From Nitrospira sp. (lineage in GTDB: Bacteria > Nitrospirota > Nitrospiria > Nitrospirales > Nitrospiraceae): a DNA stretch of 64,000 bases. The stretch covers positions 2,439,501-2,503,500 of the forward strand of contig BQWY01000001.1 of assembly GCA_036984305.1 (NCBI GenBank), written 5' to 3'. Made by a program: the position numbers and the translations under genes. Under the pieces are notes generated by a model. The model was not told where the DNA came from. It worked only from the letters and a program-made list of their open reading frames with translations, and made no database searches. Position 1 is the first letter of the stretch; each line of letters opens with the position of its first letter. This document shows, in pieces, positions 40,815 to 48,602 of the stretch.

Positions 40815-41951
40815 TTACATTGGTACCGTGCGAGCGTCCGGTTCTCTGGGACAGGCGCCTGAAACCGGCTCGCTCGTGGCCTCCACGTCCCCATAGACAT
40901 ACGCGGCCACGTTCTTGGAGACCTCCGACGCAAACTCCAATTGAATGGACCGAAGCGCCTTTCCCGTCGCCTCAGGAACCGACAGGTGCCCGACCTTGTC
41001 ACCGCGGGCGAACGCGCCGACCACTCGTTGTGTCGCCGACTCGACGAGCACGAAATCGCTGCACCAGCGGACGAACCGAAATTGAGGATCTCGGACATCG
41101 ATCGGCCAGATCCGTACGAGGCCTTTGAGGGCGAGCACGGGGGGCGGTCCTTCCGTCATGCCCTTCCCGGACCCCGCTCCGACAACTGCGAGCCCTTCAC
41201 GCACCAGACCTTCGCTCAGCGCACGCGCGATCGCTTCGCGATGATCGCCCGACAGCTCTAATCCGATGGGCACTGCCGCGACGAGGCGCTCCAACTCAGC
41301 GGTCAGTTCGGCGACGCGATAACGCGGTGCAACCCCTTGCCCATTGAGACGGAGGACTCGAAGGTCGGAATTATGCGCCTCGCGGATCACGAGCGCGTTC
41401 GTGGCTCGCTTCAGTAGCCGTAGGCGAGTGAGCGGGTTACGAGCGTCCCGCGATTCCGCGACTTGAGTTTCGATGCTCTGATCGAGTTCGACAAGCCTTG
41501 CGAGCGTGGCCGTTTCAGCGGCTCCACGCGACAACCCGGCGAGGACCCAATGCAACCGGCGCGGCTCGTCGTACCATTGATCGAGCACGGAGACGTTTTC
41601 CAGCACCTTGTCCGTCGTCACGTTCGTCACATGATCCAATGTCAAGCGTCGTTCATCGCGACTCTTCCCGCGATTTTCCACCAACAGGTAGGATTCCCAC
41701 TCCCGAGCCTCTGACGAGACGTTGGCTTTGAATACCTTGGCGACCGAGGCATACGCCTTCTCCGTGGCAGAGGCGACAGTCTCCGCTTCGCCTAAGCCGG
41801 TGATGTATCGGTCCGAAGGAAAGGCCCGGCTGGTGCCGGTCACCCAATCGGGTTTCGTCGCCCCATCGAACACGCTGCATCCTGCGAGGAGGAAGGGGAT
41901 CGTGCTGAGAACGAATCGGACTCCGTTCGCGGCGCCGTGGGTGGACGTCAT
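40815..41951 (-). CDS. LPP20-family lipoprotein, long form
   Basis: A 378-residue protein with a lipobox (TIPFLLAGCSVFD), so it is anchored in a membrane by lipid. Residues 30-150 match the LPP20 pattern (GLGEAETVASATEKAYASVA with KVFKANVSSEAREWE, like the family's GxAxG.. A..A.A.AELA). ATG 41951 overlaps the stop of the upstream COG3014 gene (ATGA), which fixes the start; the longer frame is not used. It is the last gene of a four-gene lipoprotein cluster. Confidence 0.83.
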   Translation of the reverse strand: MTSTHGAANGVRFVLSTIPFLLAGCSVFDGATKPDWVTGTSRAFPSDRYITGLGEAETVASATEKAYASVAKVFKANVSSEAREWESYLLVENRGKSRDERRLTLDHVTNVTTDKVLENVSVLDQWYDEPRRLHWVLAGLSRGAAETATLARLVELDQSIETQVAESRDARNPLTRLRLLKRATNALVIREAHNSDLRVLRLNGQGVAPRYRVAELTAELERLVAAVPIGLELSGDHREAIARALSEGLVREGLAVVGAGSGKGMTEGPPPVLALKGLVRIWPIDVRDPQFRFVRWCSDFVLVESATQRVVGAFARGDKVGHLSVPEATGKALRSIQLEFASEVSKNVAAYVYGDVEATSEPVSGACPREPDARTVPM

Positions 41952-43462
41952 TGGATGGCACGCTCCAGCAGAAACCGCATTTCGCCCTCCCGGAGCGCGA
42001 CTCGTCGAGGAGACGATGGGCGCAGAGAACGTTGTGATCCACCCAAGGCCTGCACGTGGACATCGTATTCCCCCGCTGGAACCCAAAGACGCGCGACCTG
42101 GATCTCGTCAGGCAGGGTCCGCCACGAGCGCTTGTCGGATTCCTCCGTTGCCAGTGCTGCCGTTTTCAGTAAGGCCCCCGCCACAAAGGCCACCCACTCC
42201 AAGTCATTTCGTTGCCCATCGTGCCGGCTCATTGCCGACTGCATCCCCCGTTCAGCGGCCTCGGCCAACCCATATTTGATTGCCGCGCGGGCGGCCGCCC
42301 GCGCGGCAATACCGGGCATGCGCTCCGACAGGCGTTTGTCCGCCAACGCCGTAATACTGTGCATCGGTTCCGTCTGCCCTTCGTAGGTACCGTACGCCCC
42401 GGAGATGACGACGTGTGATGAGACGATCGAACTCCGCTGCGGGACCAATCGCGGCAAGGCGATGCGTACAATCTTGCCATTCAGTCCATACAACAGACTC
42501 TCTGCAGTTCGCGTCCGATTGGTGCCGCCACCGATTCCTCGACTCAACAGCACGAGCTGCGCCGCATCCATGCCGAGGGGAACATCGACAAATTGATCGA
42601 CGCGGGCGGGGGCTCGACCATTATAGCTAATGAGGACCACCTGCGCGAGCCTGCGTTGCTCGCTGTGCGATCGCCACGTCGTGTTGGGGAAAGCCCGTCG
42701 GTACTCTTGAAATTCGTCGGTCAGCCCCAGTGCATTCGAGACCCGAAGGAGATCGGCCCGCAATGCCACCGGCACGCCGATACGCTTTCCCAACATGCTT
42801 CTGCGATAGGCATCGTAGGCGCGTCGATAGGCAACCAGGGCGTTATTCAAATCCTCTGCGGCCTCGTATAGAATGCCGGTGAGATATCGCGCAAATCCAT
42901 CGTCGCGATAGCCGTCTTTATCCGTTTCCCGGTCCGCGATGACGTTCAGGCGATGGTCAAGCCGGCGCGCCTCGACCAGCGCCTCCTGCCAATTCTGCTG
43001 CAAGGCGTAGTTGATGGCCTTCATCACGTTGATCATGACCTGTTCGTATGGGTCGCCTTCGAACGGCAATTCATTGTCATTCACGAGGAAGGACAGCGCT
43101 TCATTCCTGATTTTCCGAGTGAAGAGACGATCAACCTCATCTTCGGCTGCGCTCAAGACTTCGTTGCTGGCTTCGTACTGGCCGGAGAGTTGAAGGGTGA
43201 AACCACGATCCATGCCGTATAGCACCCGCGCCTTCGTCCCATAGTCCGATTCGGCCTTGGCGACGATTGAGTCCGCGGCCTGGTAGTTTCCGGCACGGAG
43301 ACTATCCTCAATTCGCAGGTAGTGACCCTGGCCGAGGGAACAGGCCGAGAGCAGCGCCCATACCACCAAGACGAGCAGTCGGCACGAACGCGCACGAGGA
43401 GATCCCGGACGGCAGATCGGGTGGCAGGGGGATACCGCGGGGGAATTCGATGGCGGCGGCAA
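41948..43462 (-). CDS. COG3014-type lipoprotein
   Basis: A 504-residue protein with a lipobox LLSACSLGQ after a hydrophobic stretch. The body has TPR-like helices (GNYQAADSIVAKAESDYGTK, LNNALVAYRRAYDAYRRSML) and a C-terminal region with AARAAARAAIKYGLAEAAER. I assign it to COG3014 from memory of such proteins in clusters with LpoB. The TTG start at 43462 directly follows the TAA of lpoB and is uncertain; no better start lies before the lipobox. Confidence 0.75.
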   Translation of the reverse strand: MPPPSNSPAVSPCHPICRPGSPRARSCRLLVLVVWALLSACSLGQGHYLRIEDSLRAGNYQAADSIVAKAESDYGTKARVLYGMDRGFTLQLSGQYEASNEVLSAAEDEVDRLFTRKIRNEALSFLVNDNELPFEGDPYEQVMINVMKAINYALQQNWQEALVEARRLDHRLNVIADRETDKDGYRDDGFARYLTGILYEAAEDLNNALVAYRRAYDAYRRSMLGKRIGVPVALRADLLRVSNALGLTDEFQEYRRAFPNTTWRSHSEQRRLAQVVLISYNGRAPARVDQFVDVPLGMDAAQLVLLSRGIGGGTNRTRTAESLLYGLNGKIVRIALPRLVPQRSSIVSSHVVISGAYGTYEGQTEPMHSITALADKRLSERMPGIAARAAARAAIKYGLAEAAERGMQSAMSRHDGQRNDLEWVAFVAGALLKTAALATEESDKRSWRTLPDEIQVARLWVPAGEYDVHVQALGGSQRSLRPSSPRRVALREGEMRFLLERAIQ

Positions 43463-44083
43463 TTAGAACACGGACCGTTTGCGTTCGATGACCTTCTTGA
43501 TCTTCTTTTGTCCGACCCAAGATTTCTCGTTGCTTTCAAGATCCACCAACTCGAGGTCCACTTGGTAGTAGGTGGCTCGGGTCTTGTCCTGCTCGTCGAG
43601 GATCGTGGAGATGTAGCCCTTCATCATGTAATCGGCCCCGGTCTCACGGCCGGGTCCTTTCTGTGTGTTTTCCCGTGCATGAATAGCTTGATCGCGACGC
43701 TCTTCACGCAATTCGTCACGCTCGCCCTTCGTGGCTACAAATCTGACCTTGCCGCTATTGATGAGTTCTCGGGACAGATCGCTCACAAAGGTCTGAATAT
43801 CGATGTGCTCGTGGCTGCGGTTGACGACGGTCCCGACAATGACAACGGGTTGTCGGTGTGTCTCTTTGGTGTAGGTGCCCAGCCAGGTGCTGGAAAGCGC
43901 GGCCGTGACCATTTCCTCCGCAACCAATCGCGAGTCTGTATCGTTCCATCGACCACTGAGATCCGTCACCGTCCCGCTATCGACGCGGGTCACCTTGGTC
44001 TCATGGCTACATCCGGAGAACAGTATGGCAAGGGGGATCGGCAGAAGAGCGAACAGATGACGGCCTCTTAAGCAAACCTTCAC
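43463..44083 (-). CDS. lpoB: LpoB-like lipoprotein (penicillin-binding protein activator)
   Basis: A 206-residue lipoprotein. The GTG at 44083 has GGAGG eight bases upstream, and the lipobox is LAILFSGCSHET. The family motifs VVIVGTVVNRSHEHIDIQTF, INSGKVRFVATKGERDELRE and ADYMMKGYISTI match LpoB, which activates class A PBPs from the outer membrane. The family also occurs beside LPP20 and COG3014 genes outside enterobacteria, where the partner enzyme is unknown; so the PBP role here is inference. Confidence 0.85.
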   Translation of the reverse strand: MKVCLRGRHLFALLPIPLAILFSGCSHETKVTRVDSGTVTDLSGRWNDTDSRLVAEEMVTAALSSTWLGTYTKETHRQPVVIVGTVVNRSHEHIDIQTFVSDLSRELINSGKVRFVATKGERDELREERRDQAIHARENTQKGPGRETGADYMMKGYISTILDEQDKTRATYYQVDLELVDLESNEKSWVGQKKIKKVIERKRSVF

Positions 44084-44123
44084 TCCCGGCACCTCCACGG
44101 GTGAATTCGACAACGGCTGAGCG

Positions 44124-44681
44124 CTATCTGATCCCGCGTTTTTCTTCCTCTTTCTCGAGGCGCTCGAAGAGCTTATCGGCGTTTTTTCTCACAAAATCAC
44201 GCACTTCGCTATTCAGTTCCCTGGCCTTCATCATGTTTTCCTTCATCTCGTCCAGACTCAACTTCGTCAGCACGTAATACGTGTTGGCCTTTTCGTCCTT
44301 CCACCGGTCGACCGACTTCACGCCGCTGAGTGTCGTCGTCGAGATGGTCTTGATAGCCCGCTCGACATTCTGTTCCTCGCTGTTGCGGGAGAAATCACCG
44401 GCGGTGGTGGAGGCAGCGTAATCGCGCATCAGGTATCCCGTATATGTCTCGAAGGTTTTTGCGATTTCGGCACGGGCACGATTTTCGGCCGTATCCCACG
44501 CGAGCGGCTCGTTCTTGACGCCGGTCACGGATCCAACGCCATAGAAATTCTTGTCATCGTATGCGCCCGACCCCTTCTTGACCCACTTGGGTGGACCTCC
44601 GCACGCGGCCAGCGTGCAAGCGAACGCGACGACTACACCCAGGTGGGCCCATCGTGCGATGCGGTTCGGTTGTGCTACCAT
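44124..44681 (-). CDS. LPP20-family lipoprotein, short form
   Basis: A 185-residue lipoprotein. ATG 44681 has GGAGGAG at the right spacing. A hydrophobic segment ends in the lipobox TLAACGGPP, and the mature protein has PKWVKKGSGAYDDKNFYGVG and AWDTAENRARAEIAKTFETY, typical of LPP20. It heads the lipoprotein cluster behind a promoter at 44763-44791. Confidence 0.87.
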   Translation of the reverse strand: MVAQPNRIARWAHLGVVVAFACTLAACGGPPKWVKKGSGAYDDKNFYGVGSVTGVKNEPLAWDTAENRARAEIAKTFETYTGYLMRDYAASTTAGDFSRNSEEQNVERAIKTISTTTLSGVKSVDRWKDEKANTYYVLTKLSLDEMKENMMKARELNSEVRDFVRKNADKLFERLEKEEEKRGIR

Positions 44682-44762
44682 CTGACTCCTCCTTGATGGT
44701 GTCCGAAGTGGCCTGATGACCGACGAACGGCGCATCCGTATAAGCACTAGATTGTGCAAGGG

Positions 44763-44791: not shown

Positions 44792-44860
44792 ACGAGCGCG
44801 CGATTCATGCGTCGACCGCTGAAAAGACAGACTGGAAGCGCCTTTGAAAGGGGTACACAC

Positions 44861-45031
44861 GTGGCAGAAATTAAACTCGAGGACGGAATCATTCGGATTG
44901 CGGAACTAGACATTCAGGACATGAAAGCGGCAGCGATCCTGCAGGAATATCCACCGTCCCGATGGGCCGAAATTACCCGCCGCGCCGTGAAGATCGGGCT
45001 AGGCTACCTCAAGGGTGGCGCAGAATCCTAA
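44861..45031 (+). CDS. Small hypothetical protein
   Basis: A 56-residue protein (VAEIKLEDGIIRIAELDIQD) of unknown family. GTG 44861 has an AAAGGGG site nine bases upstream; an ATG at 44807 would add 18 residues without a ribosome site. It lies between the divergent lipoprotein cluster and the convergent caspase-fold gene. Confidence 0.55.
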   Translation: MAEIKLEDGIIRIAELDIQDMKAAAILQEYPPSRWAEITRRAVKIGLGYLKGGAES

Positions 45032-45119: not shown

Positions 45120-46532
45120 TCACGGTGCAGGAGGAGAAGCGGCCTGTTTACGGAAGAAGAGCGTGGCACGACTGTTGGTCCCTCCCAATTCTTGGTAACG
45201 CTTGTAGGCGCCGGCAGCTTTCTCGTTGTCGTTCAAGCTGTCCTCGTACAGCATCCCCAACGACAAGTAGACGTCCGCGTATTCGGGGTTCGCCTTCACT
45301 GCATTCAAGAATGCCGCTTCGGCCTGCGTAAAGGCGCGCCGCTTTTCTTGGACCAGACCCAACGTATAATGGGAATCGGGGTTGTTCGGGGCATACTTGA
45401 CGGCAAGCTGAGCCTCGGACAACGCGTCATCCAGACTTGGACGAATCTCCAGATGGACATAACTCTTCAGCACATAGGCATCGCCCAGCGTGGGATCCAG
45501 CGCGAGCGCCTTATCGAGTCGTGCAAGCGCTTCATCGGGAGACTGCTGAGTTTGGAGCAACTTGAAGGCTTCATCATACTGATGCTTGGCCGCAGCCGCC
45601 TTTTCCTCCTGCGAGGTCGGCTTCGGTCCCATGGCAAAATCCGACGGTTTGCCCTCGATCATGACGGTGTCGCCGTCTCCGTCGAGACGGGCATACTGAG
45701 GATGCTGCGCACCGTTTGATCGCGCCTCAATCGTATCCTTCACGAAACGACCGAGTTCCGATGCCATCAACCATCCATTGTTGTTCAAGTCGGCCGCGCC
45801 GCTTAATCCTTCAGTGACGGCCCCAACAAACGGACTGTGTCCATCGACCCATCCGGAGGGCTCGCCGAATTTCCGTGCCGACAAGACTTGAAGCACCCGC
45901 TTGTCGGTATCCTGTTCGGGAGTCGTTCGCCCCTCGAGAGAAAGCTGCTGCGATGGTGTCACGTCCCACCCGCTGACCTCGGCATCCAGGAGCAGCAAGA
46001 CGTGCTTGGCCATCACCCGATGCCCTACTTCCTTGAGCTGGTCGAGACTCACGGCCTTGGTTGCCCCTTGCACCTGCGCGTCCCACGGGACGAGATACCC
46101 GAGTGGATGGCCGTTCAGATCCATCGTTTCACCGGCGTGCCCTGCGAAGTAGATGACGAGCCGATCCGCTCGGCCTAATTTCCTCGTCAGGACGTCATCG
46201 AGAATATGATGGAGATTCTTGGAGGATGCTTTCTTATTGTAGACCTCGACCACTTCGTCGAAGTCGAGTTTCCGCAACGTTTCGGCGACCTGCTTGGCAT
46301 TCTTGACGGCGCCCGGCAGTGGAGGCGCGACCAAATACTCGTCGATCCCGATGACCAAACCCCACGACTTGTAATAGAGCCCCTCGGGTTTACCCAACTG
46401 CCCCTGGCTCGCCGTCGGAGCGGCACACAGCGCCAGAACGAGCACACACACGGCAATCGTGCGCGGGGCGATAAGGATGTGGGGTGAGTAAAAACGAAAT
46501 GGATTTCGCAGCAAGGAGGACCGGCTCCGCAT
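45120..46532 (-). CDS. Caspase-fold (C14) protein with TPR repeats, catalytic Cys missing
   Basis: A 470-residue secreted protein. A signal peptide (TIAVCVLVLALCAAPTASQ) precedes a caspase-like domain (about 50-310). GLVIGIDEYLVAPPLPGAVK and VIYFAGHAGE (His132) match orthocaspases, but the usual DACxSG is DAEVSG, with Glu185 (codon 45978-45980) in place of the nucleophile Cys. An EF-hand-like loop DLNNNGWLMASE follows. Residues 330-455 are TPR repeats (AYVLKSYVHLEIRPSLDDAL, DSHYTLGLVQEKRRAFTQAE, DVYLSLGMLYEDSLNDNEKA). It is thus probably a non-catalytic binding protein. ATG 46532 is the best start; no strong ribosome site is seen. Confidence 0.85.
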   Translation of the reverse strand: MRSRSSLLRNPFRFYSPHILIAPRTIAVCVLVLALCAAPTASQGQLGKPEGLYYKSWGLVIGIDEYLVAPPLPGAVKNAKQVAETLRKLDFDEVVEVYNKKASSKNLHHILDDVLTRKLGRADRLVIYFAGHAGETMDLNGHPLGYLVPWDAQVQGATKAVSLDQLKEVGHRVMAKHVLLLLDAEVSGWDVTPSQQLSLEGRTTPEQDTDKRVLQVLSARKFGEPSGWVDGHSPFVGAVTEGLSGAADLNNNGWLMASELGRFVKDTIEARSNGAQHPQYARLDGDGDTVMIEGKPSDFAMGPKPTSQEEKAAAAKHQYDEAFKLLQTQQSPDEALARLDKALALDPTLGDAYVLKSYVHLEIRPSLDDALSEAQLAVKYAPNNPDSHYTLGLVQEKRRAFTQAEAAFLNAVKANPEYADVYLSLGMLYEDSLNDNEKAAGAYKRYQELGGTNSRATLFFRKQAASPPAP

Positions 46533-46625
46533 TTGGTCTAACCCTACCCTCGCCTCAATACGACTGTCAAGGAAGCCCCCAGGCCCTCCGCCGCGCATGC
46601 AGCCGTCGTCCGTCACCGGTTGGGG

Positions 46626-46654
46626 TTGCCTCCCCGAGATGGCTTGCGCATAAT
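46626..46654 (+). promoter_or_regulatory. Possible promoter of acs
   Basis: TTGCCT (46626-46631, four of six matches), a 17-base spacer and CATAAT (46649-46654, five of six matches). The predicted start near 46661 gives a leader of about 49 bases with AAGGAG before ATG 46710. Confidence 0.4.
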
Positions 46655-46709
46655 GTCGCGCCAGTGCGATACGCCCCCTGCGTCCGCGCCATCACCAAGG
46701 AGCATTTGT

Positions 46710-48602
46710 ATGACCGAGGAGAAACTGGATACGCTGTTAAAGGAATCCCGTGTCTATCGCCCCGCGGCGGAAACCATGGCCGCCTCTCACGTCCCTGATT
46801 ACGAGGAGGCCTATCGCCGGTCCATCGAAAACCCGGAGCAGTTTTGGGACCAGGCGGCCAAAGAACTCGACTGGTTTACTCCCTGGAGCAAGGTATTGGA
46901 ATGGGATTATCCCTGGGCCAAGTGGTTCCTTGGTGGTACCTGTAACATTTCCTACAACTGTCTCGACCGTCACGTCAAAACGTGGCGCCGCAACAAGGTT
47001 GCCGTCATCTGGGTCGGCGAGCACGGCGAGGAACGCATTTTCACCTATGCGGAACTCTATCGTCAGGTTTGCCGCTGCGCGAACGCGCTCAAAGCATTGG
47101 GCCTCAAGCAGGGTGATCGCGTCACGATTTACCTGCCGAAGATACCCGAGCAAATGATCGCGATGCTGGCCTGCGCCCGACTGGGCCTCATCCATAGCGT
47201 CGTCTATAGCGGGTTCAGCGCCCCGGCACTCGAGAGTCGAATCCAAGATGCCGAATCTCGGCTCGTCATCACCGCTGACGTCGGCTACGACCGCGCCAAG
47301 ACCATTCAGTTGAAGCCCGTCGTCGACCAGGCTGTGGGGAACTGTCCGACCGTCGAACATGTCGTCGTGGTTCGACGCGAGAAGCCCGGGGTCCCGTTGG
47401 CCTCCCCCAAGGAAATCGACTGGGAAGCGTGGCTCAAGGATCAGAAGACCACGTGCGAGCCAGTGCGGCTCGACGCCGAAGCCCCCCTGTACATTCTCTA
47501 TACGTCCGGGACCACCGGTAAGCCGAAGGGGGTCGTGCACGTCCACGGCGGCTACATGGTCGGCACCTATCTCACAACAAAGTATGTCTTCAATTTGAAA
47601 GAAGACGACATCTACTTCTGCGTCGCCGATCCGGGCTGGGTCACGGGGCACAGCTACATCGTCTATGGGCCGCTGCTCAACGGCGCCACGATTTTAACGG
47701 CCGAAGGCAAACCCGACTATCCGAATCCGGGCCGCTGGTGGAGCATTATTGAGCACTATGGGGTGACCGTGTTCTATACGACTCCGACCGCGATTCGACT
47801 ACTCATGCGCTATGGGGAGGAATGGCCGGCCAAATACGATCTCTCGTGCCTTCGAGTCCTCGGAAGCGTTGGCGAGCCGATCAATCCGGAGGCCTGGGAA
47901 TGGTTGTATCGCGTCACGGGCAGCCACAAGCCGATCATGGATACCTGGTGGCAAACGGAGACCGGCATGATCCTCGTCACTCCCCTCCCCTCCGTGCCCC
48001 TCAAACCGGGTTCGGCGACCCGCCCCTTTCTCGGCGTCGAAGCCGACGTGGTCGATCGTGAGGGGAAGAGCCTGCCCGCCAACGCGGGGGGCTTCGCCGT
48101 GATCAAGAAGCCGTGGCCGTCCATGATGCGAACGATTTACAAGGATCCTGATCGGTACAAGGTCTATTGGAATACGATCCCAAACTGCTATACGGCGGGA
48201 GACGTCTGTCGCAAGGACGACGACGGGTACATGTGGTTCATGGGACGCGCCGACGACGTCATCAAGGTGGCCGGCAATCGCATCGGCACGGCGGAGGTCG
48301 AGAGCGCGCTCGTGAGCCATCCTGCCGTTGCCGAAGCGGCAGTGATCGGCAAGCCACACGCGACTGTGGGCGAGTCGATCAAGGCGTTCGTCATTTTGAA
48401 ACAAGGCCACCAACACACCCACGAACTGGTACAGGCCCTGAAGCAGCACGTGCACGCCGAATTGGGTAAGATCGCAGTACCAGCTGAGATCGACATCGTC
48501 TCGTCGCTGCCCAAAACCCGGTCGGGGAAGATCATGCGCCGCGTGTTGAAGGCTAAGGAATTGGGACAGGACGTCGGGGACGTCTCCACACTGGAAGATT
48601 GA
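46710..48602 (+). CDS. acs: Acetyl-CoA synthetase
   Basis: Acs makes acetyl-CoA from acetate, ATP and CoA. The 630-residue protein has the AMP-binding motif LYTSGTTGKPKGVVHVHGGY, then DTWWQTETGMI, the YTAGDVCRKDDDGYMWFMGR hinge and the C-terminal KTRSGKIMRRVLKA whose last Lys is the usual acetylation site. ATG 46710 has AAGGAG upstream. Length is typical (about 640). The discoidin-like gene follows 50 bases later. Confidence 0.97.
   Translation: MTEEKLDTLLKESRVYRPAAETMAASHVPDYEEAYRRSIENPEQFWDQAAKELDWFTPWSKVLEWDYPWAKWFLGGTCNISYNCLDRHVKTWRRNKVAVIWVGEHGEERIFTYAELYRQVCRCANALKALGLKQGDRVTIYLPKIPEQMIAMLACARLGLIHSVVYSGFSAPALESRIQDAESRLVITADVGYDRAKTIQLKPVVDQAVGNCPTVEHVVVVRREKPGVPLASPKEIDWEAWLKDQKTTCEPVRLDAEAPLYILYTSGTTGKPKGVVHVHGGYMVGTYLTTKYVFNLKEDDIYFCVADPGWVTGHSYIVYGPLLNGATILTAEGKPDYPNPGRWWSIIEHYGVTVFYTTPTAIRLLMRYGEEWPAKYDLSCLRVLGSVGEPINPEAWEWLYRVTGSHKPIMDTWWQTETGMILVTPLPSVPLKPGSATRPFLGVEADVVDREGKSLPANAGGFAVIKKPWPSMMRTIYKDPDRYKVYWNTIPNCYTAGDVCRKDDDGYMWFMGRADDVIKVAGNRIGTAEVESALVSHPAVAEAAVIGKPHATVGESIKAFVILKQGHQHTHELVQALKQHVHAELGKIAVPAEIDIVSSLPKTRSGKIMRRVLKAKELGQDVGDVSTLED

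Follow-up and report, generated by a model that had tools for sequence, protein, structure and literature searches.

An old, family-wide pseudo-caspase of the Nitrospiraceae that lacks the catalytic cysteine and keeps the histidine

What is a caspase fold good for once the residue that cuts has gone? The question is raised by one gene in a window of 64,000 nucleotides (the whole stretch of DNA analysed) from a genome deposited as Nitrospira sp. An initial annotation had described the product as an exported C14 caspase domain with Glu in place of the catalytic Cys, followed by an EF-hand-like loop and TPR repeats, and had proposed an envelope scaffold. The features of the gene, whose strand was absent from that annotation, are the following:

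45120..46532, minus: gene of the predicted exported pseudo-caspase, 470 amino acids
46401..46532, minus: predicted signal peptide, residues 1-44; the mature protein would start at the invariant Gln45, and the exact start codon is putative
45693..46364, minus: caspase (C14) domain, residues 57-280, by Pfam match and structure match
46299..46301, minus: codon of Asn78, putative equivalent of MCA2 Asp95 (S1 pocket), assigned by motif rather than by direct alignment
46137..46139, minus: codon of His132, the catalytic His in active relatives
45984..45986, minus: codon of Asp183, putative equivalent of Trypanosoma brucei MCA2 Asp211 (S1 pocket), assigned by motif
45978..45980, minus: codon of Glu185, which stands where active enzymes have the catalytic Cys
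45915..45941, minus: conserved loop S198-L-E-G-R202-T-T-P-E206, directly past the dead active site, of low pLDDT
45756..45791, minus: EF-hand-like loop, residues 248-259 (D248-x-N-x-N-G-W-x-x-x-x-E259)
45180..45569, minus: TPR repeats, residues about 322-451, by several TPR models and structure match

Both the domain and its altered active site were read correctly at the outset. PF00656 (Peptidase_C14) matches residues 57-280 with an E-value of 5e-11 and 43.2 bits, above the cut-off of 21.4, in a Pfam search that showed this one C14 match and the TPRs. His132 sits within YFAGHAGE and Glu185 within DAEVSG, where active enzymes would read DACxSG. The AlphaFold2 model of the mature protein has a mean pLDDT of 84.0, and the model of the isolated domain reaches 84.6 (pTM 0.86). 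In structure searches, which were based on the first (mature-protein) model only, the best solved match was MALT1 (3uo8; Z 22.0, rmsd 2.6, 204 aligned residues, 18% identity), followed by metacaspases and caspases, and the C-terminal part matched TPR superhelices. As modelled, the domain is thus a caspase fold, closest to the MALT1 paracaspase and metacaspases (Z about 20-22, 15-18% identity), which are active enzymes.

A single Glu codon could have been a sequencing error or a recent mutation, and this explanation falls with the comparison of 161 aligned copies from 158 Nitrospiraceae genomes. The catalytic Cys column holds no Cys in any of them (P63, A52, N26, G17, S2, E1), and the His132 column is His in 161/161; an earlier set of 93 distinct sequences, drawn mostly from these species, gives the same picture. 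The orthologs therefore share the loss and vary in what replaces it. Glu itself is private to the window genome (1/161), the sole genome of its genus in the set, and at one copy in 161 it cannot serve as a functional signature; the emphasis on Glu in the initial annotation stands for this copy, and the family trait is the absence of Cys. No replacement elsewhere came to light: both Cys residues of the window protein sit in the signal peptide, its mature part has none that could fit the active site, and the caspase domains of all 161 rows pooled contain two Cys only. Matches at E <= 1e-20 were found in 166/175 Nitrospiraceae genomes and 21/22 genera (the two weakest may be paralogs or fragments), and a few copies carry stops within the matched stretch. 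This is an old, family-wide pseudo-caspase, real and not an artefact. Tandem pairs of it occur at two loci (L072:7926-11459 and G076:C69:52644-56060), and N. moscoviensis has two copies (L061 and L089), one of them apart from the lipoprotein cluster described below.

The relatives that still look active show what was lost. Among 20 lower-scoring fetched relatives (L152-L171), His is present in 20 and Cys in 19, in 17 by alignment column and in L154 and L170 by reading the shifted sequence. These Nitrospirota paralogs share with the pseudo-caspases the fold, the context of the Cys strand, the His, D123, R124, H177 and the EF-hand-like loop, and differ in keeping the Cys and, in 18 of the 19 active relatives L152-L170, a Gly after the His. 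This Gly contributes to the oxyanion hole; in the 161 copies the same position reads A139, T11, S6, V4 and G1. The one relative without Cys, L171 (G405:C1:1091691-1096434), is a caspase homologue that lies outside the family, has Phe there (DAFLSG) and probably represents an independent pseudo-caspase; every other outside-family locus fetched has the Cys. The window genome itself encodes further C14 proteins, of which 6/7 fetched loci carry both the His and the Cys motifs. The seventh, a large C14 protein (L008, G000:C1:3556454-3557179), has DACHSA but no GH motif of the usual kind ahead of it, and a second match close to it carries an identical score.

In a tree of 56 domains, made with a quick method and with some paralogs on long branches, the pseudo copies form one side of a branch with an SH-aLRT of 98 and a length of 0.95. 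Since they form one clade, the Cys was probably lost once and early in the Nitrospiraceae. Beyond the family, the strongest match reaches an E-value of 1.1e-36, against ~1e-125 or better for the listed full pseudo domains, and among 395 sampled genomes of the phylum no clade member was found beyond the Nitrospiraceae.

Pseudo-orthocaspases of bacteria have already been published (Klemencic et al. 2019, PMC6426788), and the Nitrospiraceae clade is new among them. Like those proteins it has a caspase p20 fold and a broken His-Cys dyad, with an acidic S1 pocket largely kept in the published cases, and it lacks the catalytic Cys of an active orthocaspase. As described in the main text of that paper, pseudo-orthocaspases occur mostly in Alphaproteobacteria and Cyanobacteria and are linked to photosynthesis, the dyads most named are YS, YA, FS and YN, and for Rhizobiales the paper mentions His-Ala dyads as well as variants that bear TPRs (FS); the word Nitrospira is absent from its main text. 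The present clade differs in belonging to nitrite oxidisers, in never having lost the His and in its predicted export. SyOC of Synechocystis, according to the available text of PMC7889975, is also a prokaryotic pseudo-orthocaspase, cyanobacterial in this case, whose knockout leads to more tolerance to oxidative stress. For the phylum, Asplund-Samuelsson et al. (2012, PMC3501461) reported that the dyad is kept in only 57% of Nitrospirae caspase homologues; this figure is an aggregate over Nitrospirae, and the available text of the paper does not describe the clade. Among the papers listed by literature searches on caspases, metacaspases, orthocaspases and peptidase C14 of Nitrospira and Nitrospirae, none described it either.

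Where, then, does the constraint on this protein lie? Entropy is zero in 28/238 domain columns, His132 included, and 40 of the 238 columns vary more than position 185 (rank 41). Directly past it, E200 is kept in 159 and G201, R202 and E206 in 160 of 160 readable rows, and none of these four residues is conserved among active relatives. The stretch E200-E206 falls in or beside a low-confidence loop of both AlphaFold2 models, and a loop that is frozen and yet flexible, next to an active site gone dead, would fit a place of contact or of processing. The best reading of the alignment is that constraint centres around His132 and the invariant loop E200-G-R202...E206. Further invariant polar residues of the clade are D123, R124 and H177.

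The S1 pocket gives a more mixed picture. The T. brucei MCA2 residues Asp95 and Asp211 are named in PMC6426788 as S1-pocket residues, and with columns matched to them by motif only, both positions are acidic in 93/165 rows by the direct count (D/D, E/D and D/E together; D/D 87), the co-occurrence table summing to 98/165 with E/N and D/N left uncounted, and at least one is acidic in every row with both columns readable. The window copy carries N78, where most relatives have D or E, together with D183, and the Asp183-equivalent is Asn in 36/161 copies. That R202 stays invariant despite those Asn residues speaks against the idea that it fills the S1 pocket as a pseudosubstrate. The EF-hand-like loop was correctly noticed: its positions 1, 6 and 12 are conserved in the clade, its key positions being invariant or nearly so, and, being common to active relatives, it is inherited rather than new.

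Export, claimed from the start, is supported by the alignment. Of 93 aligned copies, 89 could be scored, and Gln45 is preceded by A in 80 of these and by G in 9, with A or V at most -3 positions. The most hydrophobic 12-residue stretch ahead of Gln45 has a median hydropathy of 2.6, compared with 0.86 in random domain stretches; the residues around Gln45 thus resemble a signal peptidase I site. The TPR repeats also occur where they had been placed, after the caspase domain, and their role is less secure. They are missing in 28/164 rows (which include three second reads of the same gene), where the protein ends soon after the caspase domain and the dead domain is kept; all 28 rows have Pro at the Cys position. 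The downstream DNA of 30 loci contained no TPR match except remnants in L274 and L120. Those short copies that are in the 56-domain tree sit in two places, so the TPR part may have been lost more than once. Judged from these rows, the part kept by selection is the dead caspase domain, and the TPR as an essential part, and with it the proposed TPR scaffold, is weakened because so many copies do without it; the envelope half of that proposal is still suggested by the signal peptide and by the lipoprotein genes nearby.

The neighbourhood of the gene comprises the following, with conservation counted among those of 80 loci (L042-L121) that have enough sequence on the given side:

46620..48602 (from the first possible start), plus: acetate-CoA ligase, upstream and divergent (TIGR02188, 874 bits); 70/73 loci
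44807..45031, plus: small conserved ORF (about 57 amino acids in its core), convergent with the pseudo-caspase gene; no Pfam or NCBIfam match; 65/74 loci
44124..44759, minus: LPP20-type lipoprotein gene (PF02169, 6.7e-8); 65/72 loci
43463..44113, minus: LpoB-like gene (PF13036, 3.8e-41; TIGR02722 94.4 bits, under its cut-off of 110.55); 64/71 loci
41948..43462, minus: predicted lipoprotein, lipobox by eye, no Pfam match; 63/69 loci
40815..42086, minus: second LPP20-type lipoprotein gene (PF02169, 9.7e-9); 58/64 loci

Genes further out fall to 27/57 and 18/56 loci. The minus-strand run from 40815 to 44759 thus holds four predicted lipoprotein genes in a row (LPP20, LpoB-like, no match, LPP20), conserved across the Nitrospiraceae. 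This synteny, with the LpoB-like gene in 64/71 loci, suggests a link of the pseudo-caspase to the LpoB/LPP20 genes as a lead (LpoB is covered in the available text of PMC11394524). A simple operon with them is out, since the small conserved ORF, which is read from the other strand, separates the pseudo-caspase gene from them. Among loci with enough downstream sequence, the lipoprotein genes are missing from that side at six (L073, L089, L090, L103, L107 and L114), and L082 is without LPP20 and LpoB; the ligase is absent beside L089, L091 and L114 and still adjacent in L073, L090, L103 and L107, L090 having its lipoprotein genes on the far side of the ligase. With four of the six loci keeping it, the acetate-CoA ligase is tied to the pseudo-caspase gene no less strongly than LpoB.

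We therefore return to the opening question with a reading to which we would give a probability of roughly 0.6: the protein is a periplasmic, catalytically dead member of the pseudo-orthocaspase kind that works by binding. The cutting cysteine was lost and its partner histidine never, which points to binding rather than cutting. The former substrate cleft would still serve as a docking site whose partner is probably a peptide segment or protein loop, with His132 and the loop bearing E200-G-R202 and E206 as the contact surface; the TPR repeats, where present, would add a second docking surface, and Ca2+ probably still binds at the EF-hand-like loop. The likeliest setting would be the cell envelope, perhaps together with the LpoB/LPP20 lipoproteins encoded next to it; gene order prompts this guess, and the intervening opposite-strand ORF and the six loci without these genes speak against it. 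Against binding itself, the invariance of His132 may be structural, and many copies, the window copy (N78) included, lack one of the two S1 acids.

Pseudo-caspases in animals and trypanosomes regulate active homologues, and the Nitrospiraceae protein could do likewise, binding the same substrates or pairing with an active orthocaspase in order to shield or tune it. The largely kept S1 acids and the C14 paralogs with both motifs in the same genome would fit such a role, but no active paralog adjoins the pseudo-caspase gene, and we regard it as unlikely. A different chemistry, in which His132 would act without Cys in metal binding or general acid-base action, could draw on its complete conservation and on the invariant polar residues D123, R124, H177, E200, R202 and E206. 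Of these, however, the first three are also common in active paralogs and need not mark a new site, and position 185 has settled on no family-wide residue (P, A, N, G, S, E), which makes this chemistry decidedly improbable. The variable Cys position, the lost TPRs and the few copies with internal stops might also be signs of a leftover protease decaying towards loss, an idea already disfavoured and very hard to reconcile with the 28 invariant columns, the presence in 166/175 genomes and the intact export signals. That the protein is still an active protease, its nucleophile displaced, could be argued from the retained His and from what is kept of the S1 pocket; it is scarcely credible when the two Cys in all domains together leave no shared replacement and the residue after the His is changed in 160/161 copies.

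In its boldest form, quite unlikely as it stands, the binding reading would make the protein a periplasmic receptor, near-core in the Nitrospiraceae and derived from a caspase disarmed once, whose cleft around His132 and EGR loop recognise a dedicated envelope partner, possibly an LpoB-type synthase activator; if true, this would be a bacterial caspase-fold regulator of peptidoglycan growth. Whatever the partner, a dead caspase is near-universal in a major nitrite-oxidising family, with its His frozen and its Cys position free, and the clade offers a clean natural experiment on the role of a caspase fold that is unable to cut.
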